64,000 bases of DNA. It comes from Actinacidiphila yeochonensis CN732. GTDB lineage: Bacteria > Actinomycetota > Actinomycetes > Streptomycetales > Streptomycetaceae. Positions 15,236 through 59,806 of the stretch are shown here, in pieces (positions within the stretch are counted from its first letter, which is position 1; the number at the start of each line of letters is the position of its first letter). The notes under the pieces were generated by a model. The model saw only the letters and a program-made list of their open reading frames with translations, was not told the DNA's origin and ran no database searches. The DNA is taken from contig NZ_JQNR01000005.1 of assembly GCF_000745345.1 (NCBI RefSeq), positions 1,240,001-1,304,000 on the forward strand, given 5' to 3'. Position numbers and translations under genes: made by a program.

Positions 15236-16075
15236 TCAGGCGGCGTCGTCGCAGGCCGTGGCGGCGGACCTGTCCCGCCAGGCCGCGAGGTCGTCCTGGA
15301 GGCCGCGGATCTTGACCAGCCGGCGTTCGACCGCGTCCCGGCCCAGGGCGAGGTGCCCGGGGAGCCTGTCCCCGCTGGTGACCTCGTGGATCAGGGCGGC
15401 GCCCTTGACCGGGTCGCCGAGCTGGGTGTGGTTGGCGGTGTCGATCCAGTCCAGGGTGGCGCGGGCGGGCGTGCCGGCGTAGGCGGGCAGGCGCTCGGCC
15501 GCGGTCGACAGCGAGGTGGTGTCGAGGAAGTCGGTGCGGAAGACGCCGGGCTCCACGACCATGCTCTGGATCCCGAACGGCTCCAGCTCCGCCGCGAGCG
15601 CCTCGCTGATGCCGGCCACCGCGAACTTCGAGGCGCTGTACACGCTCACCCCGGGCTCCCCCTCGAAGCCGGAGCGGGAGCCGATGTGCACGAGCTTCCC
15701 CGCTCCGGCCGCCCGCATGACAGGCAGGACGGCGCGGGTCATGTTGATCAGCCCGAAGACGTTGAGGTCGAACAGCGAGCGCGCCTCGGCTTCGGTGATC
15801 TCCTCCAGCGCACCGAGCAGGCCGCGGCCCGCGTTGTTGACGAGGACGTCGATCCGGCCGAAACGCCCCACGGCCGTCTCGACGGCCGCGGTGATCTCGC
15901 CGCTCCGGGTGACGTCGAGGGTGACGCCGAGGACCCGGTCGGAGCGCCGCAGGTCGTCCGGCAGCCGCTCCGGGTTCCGGGCGGCGGCCACGACCGTGTC
16001 ACCGCCCCGGAGGGCGGCCCGGGCGATCTCCAGACCCAGCCCGCGGGACGCGCCGGTGATGAACCACGTGGACAT
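15236..16075 (-). CDS. SDR family NAD(P)-dependent oxidoreductase
   Basis: The 279-aa classical short-chain dehydrogenase has the cofactor motif TGASRGLGLEIA near the N-terminus, DVT for the adenine ring, NNAGRG, and the catalytic Ser and YSASK at mid-protein. The substrate is unknown. The ATG at 16075 is backed by GGAGG seven bases upstream, which discounts the longer open frame. It is divergent from an XRE regulator gene 377 bases away, a common arrangement for a regulator and its target. A dispersed repeat (16116-16228) occupies the shared intergenic region. Confidence 0.93.
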   Translation of the reverse strand: MSTWFITGASRGLGLEIARAALRGGDTVVAAARNPERLPDDLRRSDRVLGVTLDVTRSGEITAAVETAVGRFGRIDVLVNNAGRGLLGALEEITEAEARSLFDLNVFGLINMTRAVLPVMRAAGAGKLVHIGSRSGFEGEPGVSVYSASKFAVAGISEALAAELEPFGIQSMVVEPGVFRTDFLDTTSLSTAAERLPAYAGTPARATLDWIDTANHTQLGDPVKGAALIHEVTSGDRLPGHLALGRDAVERRLVKIRGLQDDLAAWRDRSAATACDDAA

Positions 16076-34172: not shown

Positions 34173-35465
34173 TCAGTTCTCCTGGAGCGTCTTGGTGATG
34201 GCGTTGGACGCGGTCGTGGTGGCCTTGTCCACGGAGGTGCCCGTCAGGATGGACTGGAGCATCTGGGTGATCGTCTGGTCGCCCTCGACGCTGCCCCATC
34301 CGGACGCGCTCGGCACGTTCTTGCCGCCCTTCAGCATGGCCTGGGCGAACGGCGCGACCAGCGGGTCGGAGCTGTCGGCGTAGGACTGCAGGGCGGTGGT
34401 GGTGCTCGGGAAGTACCCGGCCTCGTCGGCCCACTTCTTGCTCAGGTCGCCGGTGGTCATCATCTTGATGAACCTGAAGGCGAGGTCGGGGTTCTTGCTG
34501 GTCTTGAGGACCGCGAGGTTGGAGCCGCCGAGGAAGGCCGGGGCGACGCCGCCGTCCTTGCCGGGGATCGGGAAGGCACCGATCTCGTTCTTCAGCGAGG
34601 GGTTCTGGGCGATCGCGGTCTTCGGGGTCCAGTTGCCCTGGATCACCATCGCGGCCTTGCCCTTGGCGAAGGAGTCGAGCAGGTCGGTCTCCTTCCACGT
34701 GGACGCGCCGACGCTGGAGGAGCCGTCCTTGAGCGCGAGGCTGGTGTAGAAGCTCAGCCCCTCGCGGGCCTGCGCCGAGTCCAGGGAGCCGGTCCACTTG
34801 CCGTTCGCCTGGGTGGCGAAGTCGCCGCCCGCGCCCCAGACGAAGGGGGCGGAGCCGTAGGCGCTCTCGCCGGCGATCGGCATCGCCATCATGCCGGGCT
34901 TCTTGGCCTTGAGCGTCTTGACGGTCTGCTCCAGCTCGGCCCAGTTCGTCGGCACCTTCAGGCCGAGCTGCTGGAAGACGTCCTTGCGGTAGACGATCGC
35001 CCGCACACCGGCGTACCAGCCGACGCCGTACTGCTTGCCGTCGTAGGTCGCGGAGTCCTTCAGCGCCGGGATCAGGTCCTTGCCCATGCCGGACGAGCTG
35101 ATCTCGGAGGTGAGGTCGTCCAGGCCGCCGGCCGCGGCGAACTCCGGCGTCCAGGTGGTGCCGATCTCGGAGACGTCCGGCCCGTCACCGGAGGCGAAGG
35201 CGCGCACCAGCTTGTCGTGCGCGTCGGCCCACTGGACCTCCTGCACCTTCAGGGTGGCGCCGGTCTGGGCCTTGAACTCCTTCTCGGCGGCGGCGTAGAA
35301 GGCCGACGCGTCGGGGTTGGTGCCCTTCATGACCCACCAGGTCAGCGACTTGCCGCCGGCGGAGGAGGACGACGAGGAGGACGAGCCGTCGTTCCCGCAC
35401 GCGGCGACGAGCAGGAAGAGGGACGCGGTGAGTCCGGCGACACCGGCTCTGCGCAGAGGTCTCAT
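34173..35465 (-). CDS. sugar ABC transporter substrate-binding lipoprotein
   Basis: The 430-aa extracytoplasmic solute-binding protein has a basic signal with lipobox VAAC, followed by a poly-Ser linker (GNDGSSSSSSSSAGG). It belongs to the family-1 type: SLTWWVMKGTNPDASAFY at the mature start, GDGPDVSEIGTTWTPEF, and the hinge-region AAMVIQGNWTPKTA and IGAFPIPG. It captures an oligosaccharide outside the cell. Because the operon continues to nagZ and faces a SIS-domain RpiR regulator near anmK, cell-wall amino sugars (GlcNAc-MurNAc, MurNAc or muropeptide) are the inferred ligands. The ATG at 35465 is preceded by AAGGAG. Confidence 0.94.
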   Translation of the reverse strand: MRPLRRAGVAGLTASLFLLVAACGNDGSSSSSSSSAGGKSLTWWVMKGTNPDASAFYAAAEKEFKAQTGATLKVQEVQWADAHDKLVRAFASGDGPDVSEIGTTWTPEFAAAGGLDDLTSEISSSGMGKDLIPALKDSATYDGKQYGVGWYAGVRAIVYRKDVFQQLGLKVPTNWAELEQTVKTLKAKKPGMMAMPIAGESAYGSAPFVWGAGGDFATQANGKWTGSLDSAQAREGLSFYTSLALKDGSSSVGASTWKETDLLDSFAKGKAAMVIQGNWTPKTAIAQNPSLKNEIGAFPIPGKDGGVAPAFLGGSNLAVLKTSKNPDLAFRFIKMMTTGDLSKKWADEAGYFPSTTTALQSYADSSDPLVAPFAQAMLKGGKNVPSASGWGSVEGDQTITQMLQSILTGTSVDKATTTASNAITKTLQEN

Positions 35466-55359: not shown

Positions 55360-58300
55360 ATGCACGACGACCGCCGCCTGGTAGAGGCCCGCCTCAAGCG
55401 CGTCCTCGACGAACGCATCCGGCCCGCCGTATACCCGGAATCGACCCCCCTCGACGTGGCCGTGTGGGTCGCGCCCGGCGAACCGGTCCCGGTCGAGGAG
55501 GGCCTGGCCGGCGAGGTGTCGCCGGTCGAGGTCGGGACGCGCTGGGGCGCCCCGTGGAGCACCAGCTGGTTCCGCGTCACCGGCACCGTCCCGCAGGAGT
55601 GGGCCGGCAAGCACGTCGAGGCCCTGCTGGACCTCGGCTTCGACGAGAACATGCCCGGCTTCCAGTGCGAGGGCCTGGTCTACCGCCCCGACGGCAGCCC
55701 GGTGAAGGGCCTCAACCCGCGCAACCAGTGGGTGCGCGTCGGCGCCCCCGCCGCCGGCGGCGAAGAGGTCGTCCTGCACGTCGAGGCGGCCTCCAACCCC
55801 GTCATCCTCGACTACCACCCCTTCCTGCCGACCCAGCTGGGCGACAAGGAGACCGCGGGCACCGAGCCGCAGTACACGCTCACCCGCATGGACCTCGTCG
55901 TCTTCGACGAGACCGTGTGGAACCTCGTCCAGGACCTGGAGGTCCTCGGCGAGCTCGTCGCGGAGCTGCCCGAGGACAGCGCCCGCCGCCACGAGATCAC
56001 CCGCGCGATCAGCCGCTCCCTGGACGCCGTCGACCTCCAGGACGTCAACGGCAGCGCCGCCGCCGCCCGCGCCGAACTCGTCGAGGTGCTCTCCACCCCG
56101 GCGCCGGCCACCGCCCACCGGATCAGCGCCGTCGGCCACGCGCACATCGACTCCGCCTGGCTGTGGCCGCTGCGCGAGACCGTCCGCAAGGTCGCCCGCA
56201 CCACCGCCAACATGACCGCCCTGCTGGAGGACGAGCCGGAGTTCATCTTCGCCATGTCCCAGGCCCAGCAGTTCGCCTGGATCAAGGAGCACCGCCCCGA
56301 GGTCTACGCCCGCGTCAAGGCGGCCGTGGCCGAGGGCCGGCTGGTGCCCGCCGGCGGCATGTGGGTCGAGTCCGACACCAACATGCCCGGCTCCGAGGCG
56401 ATGGCCCGGCAGTTCGTCCACGGCAAGCGCTTCTTCATGGACGAGTTCGGCATCGAGAACGACGAGGCGTGGCTGCCCGACACCTTCGGCTTCGCCGCGG
56501 GCCTCCCGCAGATCATCAAGGCGGCCGGCTCCAAGTGGCTGCTGACGCAGAAGATCTCGTGGAGCACGATCAACAAGTTCCCGCACCACACGTTCAACTG
56601 GGAGGGGATCGACGGCACCCGGATCTTCACCCACTTCCCGCCCGTCGACACCTACAACTGCTCCATGAAGGGCAGCGAGATCGCCCACGCGGCTCGCAAC
56701 TTCAAGGAGAAGGGCGTGGCCCGGCGCTCGCTGGCCCCCAGCGGCTTCGGCGACGGCGGCGGCGGCACCACCCGCGAGATCATCGCCAAGGCCGCGCGGA
56801 TGCGCAGCCTCGAAGGCTCCGCGACCGTCCAGTGGGAGACCCCCAAGCAGTTCTTCACCGAGGCGGAGGCGGAGTACCCCGAGCCGCCCGTGTGGGTCGG
56901 CGAGCTCTACCTGGAACTGCACCGCGCCACGCTGACCAGCCAGGCGCAGACCAAGCAGGGCAACCGCCGCAGCGAGCACCTGCTGCGCGAGGCCGAGCTG
57001 TGGGCGGCCACCGCCTCGCTGCGCACCGGCGCGCCCTACCCGTACGAGGACCTGGACCGGATCTGGAAGACGGTGCTGCTGCACCAGTTCCACGACATCC
57101 TGCCCGGCTCCTCCATCGCCTGGGTGCACCGCGAGGCCCGCGCCACCTACGCGCGGATCGCCGGTGAGCTCAACGACATCATCGACGGAGCCCAGCGCGC
57201 GCTGGCCGGCGAGGGCGACCGGGAGCTGGTCTTCAACTCCGCGCCGCACACCCGCGGCGGAGTCCAGGCCGGTGCGGCCACCGCCGCCGTGGCGCAGGCC
57301 GCCGCGAAGCTGTCCGAGCGGGACGGCGGCGGCTTCGTCCTCGACAACGGCCTGCTCCGGGTCGAGATCGACGGCCGCGGCCTGGTCGTCTCCGCGTACG
57401 ACATCGCCGCCGAGCGGGAGACCATCGCCCCCGGACACGCCGCGAACCTGCCGCAGCTGCACGCCGACTTCCCCAACCAGTGGGACGCGTGGGACGTCGA
57501 CGAGTTCTACCGCAACACCGTCACCGACCTCACCGACATCGCCGAGCTGGCCCCGGCCGACCTCGGCGACGGCAGCGCGGCGGTCCGCGTGGTGCGCGCC
57601 TTCGGCACCTCCACGATGACCCAGGTGCTCCAGCTCACGCCGAGTGCCAAGCGGCTCGACGTCACCACCGAGGTCGACTGGCACGAGACCGAGAAGTTCC
57701 TCAAGCTGGCCTTCCCCCTGGACGTGCACGCCGACCGGTACGCCTCCGAGACCCAGTTCGGGCACGTCTACCGCGCCACCCACACCAACACCACGTGGGA
57801 GGCCGCGAAGTTCGAGGCCTGCAACCACCGCTTCGTGCACCTCGCCGAGCCGGACTGGGGCGTCGCCATCGTCAACGACTCCACCTACGGCCACGACGTG
57901 ACCCGCGCGGTCCGCAACGGCGAGGGCGGCGACGGCGGCACGACCACCACGGTCCGCGCCTCCCTGCTGCGCGCCCCGCGCTTCCCGGACCCGGAGACCG
58001 ACCAGGGCGTCCACCGCTTCCACCACGCCCTCGCCCCGGGCGCCACCATCAAGGACGCGGTGGCCGAGGGCCACTGGATCAACCTGCCCGAGCGCCGCGT
58101 CCAGGGTGCCGCCGACGTCGCCCCGCTGGTGGCCGTCGACAACGACGCCGTCGTGGTCAGCGCCCTCAAGCTCGCCGACGACGAGAGCGGCGACCTCGTC
58201 GTCCGCCTCTACGAGTCGACCGGCAGCCGCGCCAAGGCCCGCGTCACCGTCGACGTCCCCGCCGGCGGCGTGGCGTTCACCGACCTCCTGGAGCGCCCCC

Positions 58301-58392
58301 TCGGCGAGACCCGCCCCGCCTTCACCGACGGCACGGTCGAGCTCTCCCTGCGCCCCTTCGAGCTCGTCACCCTCCGCTTCGCCCGCGCGTAA
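55360..58392 (+). CDS. GH38 alpha-mannosidase
   Basis: The 1010-aa cytoplasmic alpha-mannosidase matches the usual length of the bacterial/fungal-type family. The GH38 N-terminal catalytic domain has the zinc ligands in HAHIDSAWLWPLRETV and the nucleophile Asp in EAWLPDTFGFAAGLPQI. Other conserved parts are LVPAGGMWVESDTNMPG and the zinc His in VLLHQFHDILPGSS. The C-terminal beta domains include VNDSTYGHDV and a final LSLRPFELVTLRFAR. It hydrolyses terminal alpha-mannose from imported mannosides. ATG 55360 behind AGGAG; last gene of the LacI-controlled locus. Confidence 0.96.
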   Translation: MHDDRRLVEARLKRVLDERIRPAVYPESTPLDVAVWVAPGEPVPVEEGLAGEVSPVEVGTRWGAPWSTSWFRVTGTVPQEWAGKHVEALLDLGFDENMPGFQCEGLVYRPDGSPVKGLNPRNQWVRVGAPAAGGEEVVLHVEAASNPVILDYHPFLPTQLGDKETAGTEPQYTLTRMDLVVFDETVWNLVQDLEVLGELVAELPEDSARRHEITRAISRSLDAVDLQDVNGSAAAARAELVEVLSTPAPATAHRISAVGHAHIDSAWLWPLRETVRKVARTTANMTALLEDEPEFIFAMSQAQQFAWIKEHRPEVYARVKAAVAEGRLVPAGGMWVESDTNMPGSEAMARQFVHGKRFFMDEFGIENDEAWLPDTFGFAAGLPQIIKAAGSKWLLTQKISWSTINKFPHHTFNWEGIDGTRIFTHFPPVDTYNCSMKGSEIAHAARNFKEKGVARRSLAPSGFGDGGGGTTREIIAKAARMRSLEGSATVQWETPKQFFTEAEAEYPEPPVWVGELYLELHRATLTSQAQTKQGNRRSEHLLREAELWAATASLRTGAPYPYEDLDRIWKTVLLHQFHDILPGSSIAWVHREARATYARIAGELNDIIDGAQRALAGEGDRELVFNSAPHTRGGVQAGAATAAVAQAAAKLSERDGGGFVLDNGLLRVEIDGRGLVVSAYDIAAERETIAPGHAANLPQLHADFPNQWDAWDVDEFYRNTVTDLTDIAELAPADLGDGSAAVRVVRAFGTSTMTQVLQLTPSAKRLDVTTEVDWHETEKFLKLAFPLDVHADRYASETQFGHVYRATHTNTTWEAAKFEACNHRFVHLAEPDWGVAIVNDSTYGHDVTRAVRNGEGGDGGTTTTVRASLLRAPRFPDPETDQGVHRFHHALAPGATIKDAVAEGHWINLPERRVQGAADVAPLVAVDNDAVVVSALKLADDESGDLVVRLYESTGSRAKARVTVDVPAGGVAFTDLLERPLGETRPAFTDGTVELSLRPFELVTLRFARA

Positions 58393-58558: not shown

Positions 58559-59070
58559 GGAGCATCCCCGGGTGGGCGGGGAGGACATGTCCCTGGGGTT
58601 CGCCGTGCGGATCACGGCGGGAGCATCCCGGCGTGCGCGGGGAGGACCACAGTCCCGGGAAAGCGCCGCAGCGAGCACAGGGAACACCCCCGCGCGGGCG
58701 GGGAGGACCAGGACGAGCGGTTCGCCACCATCGAGACGGAAGGAGCATCCCCGCGCGGGCGGGGAGGACGGCATCAACACCCCCGACGTCAGCCTCGACG
58801 CGGGAGCATCCCCGCGCGGGGAGGAGCCGTGGGGCACCGGCTACAGCGACGAACCCCCGGGAGCATCCCCGCGTGCGCGGGGAGGACAAGATCAGGTCCG
58901 GATCGGAGACCGTGGAACCGGGAGCATCCCCGCGTGCGCGGGGAGGACGGGGTGAGCGGAATTTTCCCCATGATGGTGTCTGGAGCATCCCCGCGTGCGC
59001 GGGGAGGACGCCGTACAAATGGGTCAAGGGCGAGGTGCCCCGGGAGCATCCCCGCGCGGGCGGGGAGGAC
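58559..59070 (-). CRISPR. CRISPR array, 9 repeats and 8 spacers, type I-E-like repeat
   Basis: Repeats of 28 bases begin at 58559, 58620, 58681, 58742, 58803, 58860, 58921, 58982 and 59043. All eight spacers are exactly 33 bases. The consensus on the plus strand is GGAGCATCCCCG-CGTGCG-CGGGGAGGAC; its complement GTCCTCCCCG...CGGGGATGCTCC has the CCCCG/CGGGG stem of type I-E repeats. The repeat at 58803 is only 24 bases (a 4-base loss in the stem centre, last base changed). The first and third repeats also carry substitutions. Degeneracy at the left and the repeat orientation put the leader on the right. No cas gene lies in the window. Confidence 0.96.
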
Positions 59071-59200
59071 TTTGCGACCAGCGGGTTTAGTGCGGGGGGA
59101 GGTGGGTTTTACTTACTTCCCGGGAATCCGACATAGCCTCGTATTCATCTCATTTCGTCGCGGGCGTCTTGGACACCCCAGTCGAGGAGGACGGCTCCGC
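59071..59200 (-). promoter_or_regulatory. probable CRISPR leader
   Basis: This region abuts the right-hand repeat and is clearly less GC-rich than its surroundings, with AAGTAAGTAAAACCC and CTAAACCCGCTGGTCGCAAA read on the minus strand just before the first repeat. This position and composition fit a type I-E leader driving transcription leftwards. The rest of the 59071-59423 gap holds no gene. Confidence 0.65.
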
Positions 59201-59423: not shown

Positions 59424-59699
59424 TCAGCCCTTGCAGGCGGGGTCGGCGAGTATGACGGGAGCGGCCTCGCGGGTGGTGACGAAGGCGCGGAAGCCGGGGG
59501 CGCCGGCGACGCACTTGGTGGCGACGTTGGCGTAGCCGTCGGGGAAGTTGGTCACGTTCGCGGGGGTGTCGTCGCCGCGGTGGTTCGCGACGGGCGCGTC
59601 CGCCGTCCCGCGCTTCTCGCTGGCGCATCCGGACAGGGCGGGCAGGGCGATGAGCGTTACCAGGGCGCCGGTCAGGTACCTCGTCACGTGTCGCTTCAT
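59424..59699 (-). CDS. small hypothetical lipoprotein
   Basis: The 91-aa protein has a basic hydrophobic signal and lipobox LSGC, giving a mature lipoprotein of about 68 residues. The mature part is Ala/Asp/Pro-rich at first, then FPDGYANVATKCVAGAPGFRAFVTTREAAPVILADPACKG with two cysteines. This ending is common among streptomycete exported hypothetical proteins. The ATG at 59699 follows GAGGACGAG. It has no assigned function and is monocistronic. Confidence 0.82.
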   Translation of the reverse strand: MKRHVTRYLTGALVTLIALPALSGCASEKRGTADAPVANHRGDDTPANVTNFPDGYANVATKCVAGAPGFRAFVTTREAAPVILADPACKG

Positions 59700-59806
59700 C
59701 TCGTCCTCGCATCGGCTGGTCCGGCCCACTAGGGGTGGATGCCGTAAAGGACATGCCGCCGACCTGCGGCGGTTCCTGCGGCGGTGCCGGCTTGAGCAAA
59801 ATTGAG

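Follow-up and report, generated by a model that had tools for sequence, protein, structure and literature searches.

A lone type I-E-like CRISPR array in Actinacidiphila yeochonensis with the leader, repeat and junction base of a second I-E branch

A CRISPR array that lies apart from any cas gene raises the question of which system wrote its spacers and whether it is still of use. Such an array is found in the window, the stretch of 64,000 nucleotides analysed here (C5:1240001-1304000 of the 7.82-Mb genome, which is 97.86% complete in 6 contigs). The initial annotation described an array at 58559-59070 with nine repeats and uniform 33-base spacers, and both coordinates and counts are exact; the nine type I-E-like repeats enclose eight different 33-nt spacers. 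The features of the locus, in window positions, are as follows.

58559..59070, minus strand: CRISPR array, from R1 at the leader end (59043-59070) to R9 (58559-58586)
59071..59135, minus strand: leader, class A (see below), with AGTAAGTAAAA in repeat orientation
58860..59070, minus strand: R1-R4, leader-end repeats (starts 59043, 58982, 58921 and 58860) with full predicted 7-pair hairpins
58827..58859, minus strand: spacer S4, matching the 3' end of ssb in Streptomyces phages, where AA precedes the target
58803..58826, minus strand: R5, 24 nt, four loop bases gone, weaker predicted hairpin (-8.5 kcal/mol)
58559..58647, minus strand: R8 (58620-58647) and R9 (58559-58586) with spacer S8 between them, stem or stem-base substitutions, the decayed far end
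55360..58392, plus strand: GH38 alpha-mannosidase gene, flank, context only
59424..59729, minus strand: 101-aa lipoprotein-like ORF, flank by the leader, context only, without a Pfam or NCBIfam match

The feature is a genuine CRISPR array. Over the 7.8-Mb genome a relaxed repeat pattern gave 39+66 = 105 matches, every array counted, and the reversed pattern gave 0+0, which places the array far beyond chance; an Rfam scan of the window returned 0 matches. On the minus strand R2-R4 are three exact copies of GTCCTCCCCGCGCACGCGGGGATGCTCC, and R1 and R6 differ from these in two loop bases. Four repeats (R5, R7, R8 and R9) are degenerate, with substitutions in R7-R9 and a deletion in R5 that shortens one array step from the usual 61 nt to 57 nt. 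Nine regular 28-base repeats had been reported; the count stands, but the length does not hold for R5 or for the 57-nt step, and the repeats are not identical. The assignment as type I-E-like is borne out by the hairpin and, save for R5, by the 28-29-nt length. Seven predicted pairs are retained in R1-R4, R6 and R7 (-13.0 to -14.3 kcal/mol), and the predicted hairpins of R5 (-8.5), R8 (-8.1) and R9 (-10.3 kcal/mol) are weaker. As the leader lies on the right side of the array, the most damaged repeats sit at its old end. The loop variants alternate, R1 and R6-R7 having one form and R2-R4 and R8 the other, an arrangement that is not given by simple copying of the leader-end repeat.

No Cas proteins are encoded close to the array. 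A search of the window and its flanks (C5:1282000-1315000) with 311 Cas queries, 8 from the resident system described below and 303 segments from relatives, gave chance-level matches only, namely three weak partial ones of 49-68 aa at E 0.002-0.004, of which two fall at one place. The cognate cas3-cse1-cse2-cas7-cas5-cas6e-cas1-cas2 genes are thus absent at the array locus. The flanking genes had been described as sugar metabolism and secretion genes; the GH38 alpha-mannosidase agrees with the first, while secretion remains unconfirmed, the 445-aa ORF past the lipoprotein-like ORF having no match in Pfam or NCBIfam. When the lipoprotein-like gene was compared in 16 loci (35 genomes of the genus) and the mannosidase gene in 29 loci (62 genomes with a match), neither a repeat array nor a co-occurrence of both flank genes was seen within about 1.5 kb per locus. 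From these comparisons the site looks private to this lineage among the loci examined.

Elsewhere in the genome there are further CRISPR loci, given here in contig positions with the array classes that are defined below.

C5:4595020-4605413: resident type I-E set (cas3, cse1, cse2, cas7, cas5, cas6e, cas1, cas2)
C5:2794000-2813999: second CRISPR locus, near 2.80 Mb, with 52 exact copies of a 30-nt repeat
C5:1579577: lone I-E-like array, 9 repeats, class A
C5:1685860: lone I-E-like array, 13 repeats and two more at 1688372, class A
C5:2167603: lone I-E-like array, 5 repeats, class A
C4:238200-239204: lone I-E-like array, 17 repeats, class B

The absence of cas genes noted in the initial annotation is therefore correct locally but not genome-wide, where both an I-E set and a second CRISPR locus are present. 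The search that it had proposed for a I-E operon with the same repeat leads to the resident set, 3.3 Mb away, the arrays of which (34 and 9 repeats, one on each side) do not carry this repeat. Cas genes just outside the array and a duplicate of the array beside cas genes, the two cases named there as counter-evidence, were looked for and neither was encountered. The resident cas5 is split over two frames around C5:4602930-4602960: the Cas5 profile match covers only residues 2-159 of 230, and the single frames of two relatives align across both parts. The cas5 frame is broken in this assembly, which may reflect a true mutation or a sequencing error. The resident cse2 frame of 390 aa (positions 4899-6071 of L005, the stretch that holds the resident set) contains two Cse2 matches, as if doubled, and the close relatives L095 and L099 align to it over about 384 aa. 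At the 2.80-Mb locus 10 ORFs were scanned; one is a Cas1 just above the I-B cut-off and one frame joins Cas5-like and Cas3 domains. In the C4 lone array a two-spacer block is present twice.

The I-E-like arrays of the genome fall into two classes. Class A consists of the window array together with three of the lone arrays (1.58, 1.69 and 2.17 Mb), which share the repeat form (G/C)T(G/C)CTCCCCGC-N4-GCGGGGATG(G/C)(T/C)CC and leaders that have AGTAAGTAAAA in common. Class B consists of the two arrays by the resident operon and the C4 array; its main repeat copies end GGGGT(G/A)G(T/C)CC and its leader is unlike that of class A. The two also differ in the base that follows the repeat, which in type I-E derives from the PAM (PMC4762764, available text). 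This base is C in 29/32 class-A junctions of this genome against 17/57 of class B (Fisher 1.5e-8), and in 6/8 junctions of the window array alone (P 0.011 at the class-B rate).

The same division is seen among relatives, where arrays and genes were compared for 40 of 70 listed Cse1 match rows, namely the 20 best and a further 20 from lower in the list; a single gene may be represented by more than one row. Class A is represented by 20 loci (L069-L088) with C in 723/784 junctions, class B by 11 loci (L090-L101 without L098; L090 shows no array) with C in 396/771 and G in 253, and class C by 7 loci (L102-L108, two of which show no array) with G in 192/219; L089 and L098 lie outside the three sets. 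There are exceptions, as L076 is of class A with a mixed base, C is nearly fixed in the class-B locus L101, and L107 is grouped with class C with repeats that resemble class A. Cas3 and Cse1 lie in one open frame at 14 of the 20 class-A loci, and one such fused protein contains HD, helicase, Cas3_C and Cse1 domains by Pfam. A fused Cas3-Cse1 is known from S. griseus. In a Cas7 tree the resident protein falls within a class-B group of 12 (100/97) and the 20 class-A proteins group together (94/92, rising to 99/99 when L076 is removed), in a topology where L107 has a very long branch and the tool issued a warning on L089 and L098 with the class-C rows. The branch matched by the window array is not that of the resident I-E set. 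A three-class rule of leader, repeat and junction base was not found in the open-access literature searched.

The leader provides a further line of evidence. Profiles were built from 49 class-A, 38 class-B and 10 class-C leaders, all from other genomes and excluding L076 and L107, some entries being false starts inside arrays. The window leader scores 33.5 bits on the class-A profile, -2.0 on class B and 0.9 on class C, and the best of 200 letter shuffles of it reach 0.7, -1.3 and 2.1 bits, respectively. The leaders of the remaining class-A lone arrays score 27.5-31.9 bits on the class-A profile, and those of the class-B arrays of this genome 2.7-11.0 on A and 0.1-9.8 on B. The class-B profile is therefore weak, and for L012, one of these resident-type leaders, the class-A score (11.0) even exceeds the class-B score (6.6). 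By BLAST the window leader matches the 1.58-Mb class-A array of the same genome (E 1.1e-7) and class-A leaders of two other genomes, G022 (2.4e-6) and G006 (2.2e-4), with no class-B leader among the matches listed. Taken together, a class-A leader, a class-A repeat and C after the repeat place the window array with the second I-E branch seen in relatives.

No genes of that branch turned up in the assembly, although at 97.86% completeness and in 6 contigs it may, with a small probability, lack an operon. A whole-genome search for Cse1 found a single place, the resident one, and no class-A Cse1; Cas1 was found only at the 2.80-Mb locus and in the resident set, where two pieces aligned within one frame; and a fused Cas3-Cse1 query matched nothing beyond cas3 and cse1 of the resident set and the 2.80-Mb cas3. 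A class-A-like repeat pattern ending GATGSTCC occurs in 20/100 genomes, this one included. Six of these 20, several of them drafts, contain no Cse1 (G034, G041, G042, G047, G060 and G069), and G042 and G060 have a single copy of the pattern.

The statement that the spacers record past targets could be upheld for one of the eight, S4, which alone has a convincing mobile-element match, with AA before it. S4 matches the 3' end of ssb in Streptomyces phage Vondra at 27/33 positions, with the first 22 bases identical and AA directly before. The phage matches of S4 comprise 16 records (8 Streptomyces phages, each twice) with 21-25 bases in common (BLAST E 0.5-2), and the reverse complement of the target reads PWGTGYSDEPP, like SSB tails that end GYSDEPPF. 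The conserved SSB tail explains part of the likeness. The target is favoured by the match starting exactly at spacer base 1, by the AA, by the hosts being Streptomyces and by the SSB tail, and AA followed by C at the target agrees with the class-A junction. When the whole array was compared with phages, 31 weak records were obtained, among which an exact start at spacer base 1 is confined to the S4 set. IMG/VR was scanned per spacer with the first 21 bases, leaving positions 6, 12 and 18 free; 8 contigs match the S4 seed, 6 with AA and a GYS(D/N)EPPF tail and 2 without.

For S1-S3 and S5-S8 no convincing target was found in phages or IMG/VR, nor in plasmids for S1 and S2. In IMG/VR, S1, S2 and S3 gave 0 stretches each, and the matches of S5 (4), S6 (1), S7 (1) and S8 (2), at 22-27/33 and none with AA, were rejected. 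The plasmid search with S1, S2 and S4 gave one weak match for S1, none for S2 and ten weak ones for S4 (E 0.3-0.9), among them Limosilactobacillus, so matches of this strength arise by chance too. The whole array matched 209 plasmid records, Streptomyces leading, which were taken as repeat matches. In its own genome S4 matches, with up to 3 mismatches, the array itself and nothing else, and for the remaining spacers, compared with that genome at E up to 0.001, no convincing target was found. The spacers of two other arrays of this genome and of one relative's array gave no clear protospacer in phages, only repeat-like DNA.

Such repeat-like DNA is itself of interest. Phage Vondra has six hairpins resembling I-E repeats at 34179-34485 (starts 34179, 34240, 34300, 34358, 34407 and 34458), with differing loops, handles of more than one class and uneven spacing, in the unannotated DNA that separates genes 52 and 53. 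The cluster is 98.7-100% identical in all 16 records of the 8 phages that S4 matches, and against 100 shuffles the region shows the stronger folding (z -4.8). Saccharomonospora phage PIS 136 carries four I-E-like repeats with a period of exactly 61 nt (15680-15892), a phage-borne mini-array partly within an annotated hypothetical gene, and Streptomyces phage ZL12 has three degenerate I-E-like repeats in unannotated DNA (83823-83960). Phage repeat mimics that act as RNA anti-CRISPRs are known, type I-E included (PMC10651486, main text); the word Streptomyces is absent from that main text, and no Streptomyces phage is named there among such mimics. By its sequence features the Vondra cluster looks like a set of repeat mimics, candidate RNA anti-CRISPRs.

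The initial annotation had asked whether the array is served in trans or is an orphan relic, which is the right question, and the relic of a missing branch is favoured. The array is probably (about 0.7) a decaying memory written by a class-A type I-E branch whose genes were not found here. The class-A adaptation complex would have written its spacers, from cas genes that would once have been present in this lineage and were later lost. With spacer addition stopped, the repeats would have drifted, giving the loop deletion of R5 and the stem changes of R8 and R9. The array would now be frozen, a decaying memory that may still be transcribed.

A continued use of the array is possible, though unlikely; its crRNAs would then be processed and used in trans by the class-B Cas6e and Cascade of the resident set, as a second memory that no longer grows. 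The repeats have the same stem as those of the resident arrays, so the resident Cas6e might cut the array transcript; four leader-end repeats are intact and the leader is recognizable. Between the handle AUGCUCC and its resident counterpart GUGGUCC there are two differences, at positions where the two resident arrays also differ from one another. AAN is reported as an effective PAM for the I-E system of S. avermitilis in the text available of PMC12231136, and the S4 target has AA. The junction bases, however, are C-rich, unlike those of resident-type arrays, and the resident adaptation module therefore did not write the array; the broken cas5 frame makes a working resident effector less likely.

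Arrival of the array by horizontal transfer or rearrangement without cas genes, in a lineage that never had class A, is likewise doubtful. The private site would be expected from such an event, and Streptomyces plasmids appear to carry I-E-like arrays in the sequence records searched here. The genome nevertheless holds four class-A lone arrays with different repeats, dispersed on the contig, for which one lost operon is a simpler origin than four arrivals. In a broader proposal, the resident I-E branch would read the class-A lone arrays in trans as a second, frozen memory, and the phages recognized by S4 would answer with six mixed-class mimics, RNA anti-CRISPRs that counter two or more I-E branches at once; as a whole this is quite improbable. 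That the array is kept because its spacers exclude class-A cas genes, as cited for E. coli I-F arrays in the accessible part of PMC12814883, is very unlikely and unsupported: the four lone arrays of class A have 32 spacers, which gave 18 matches of at least 24/33 against 42 loci (best 25/33), one shuffled spacer set gave 7 with the same best, and AA precedes the match in none of the 12 listed among the 18.

The locus shows that the CRISPR branch behind a lone array can be read from its leader, its repeat and the PAM-derived base after the repeat, and that arrays can persist in a genome beside an unrelated I-E set. Whether one I-E branch reads the array of another then becomes a directly testable question.

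Lone arrays are common in Streptomyces, where 46/70 genomes have arrays and 26/70 have cas genes (Zhang et al. 2018, as cited in the available text of PMC12231136), and orphan and multiple arrays are treated in the part of PMC12814883 at hand. In this respect the window array is ordinary, one more of a known sort. Like the lone arrays of PMC12231136 it has no neighbouring cas genes, but in its case a I-E set, belonging to another branch, is present in the genome as well. With the I-E arrays of S. avermitilis, as described in the text available of PMC4762764, it shares the hairpin CCCCGCNNNNGCGGGG, the 61-nt period and a PAM-derived junction base; those arrays adjoin cas genes and have AAG, whereas the window array is alone and its base is C. 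A likeness is also seen to the I-E loci of relatives with Cas3 and Cse1 in one frame, such as L073: the arrays beside such loci match the window array in leader, repeat class and junction base, but the genes present there were not found in this genome.
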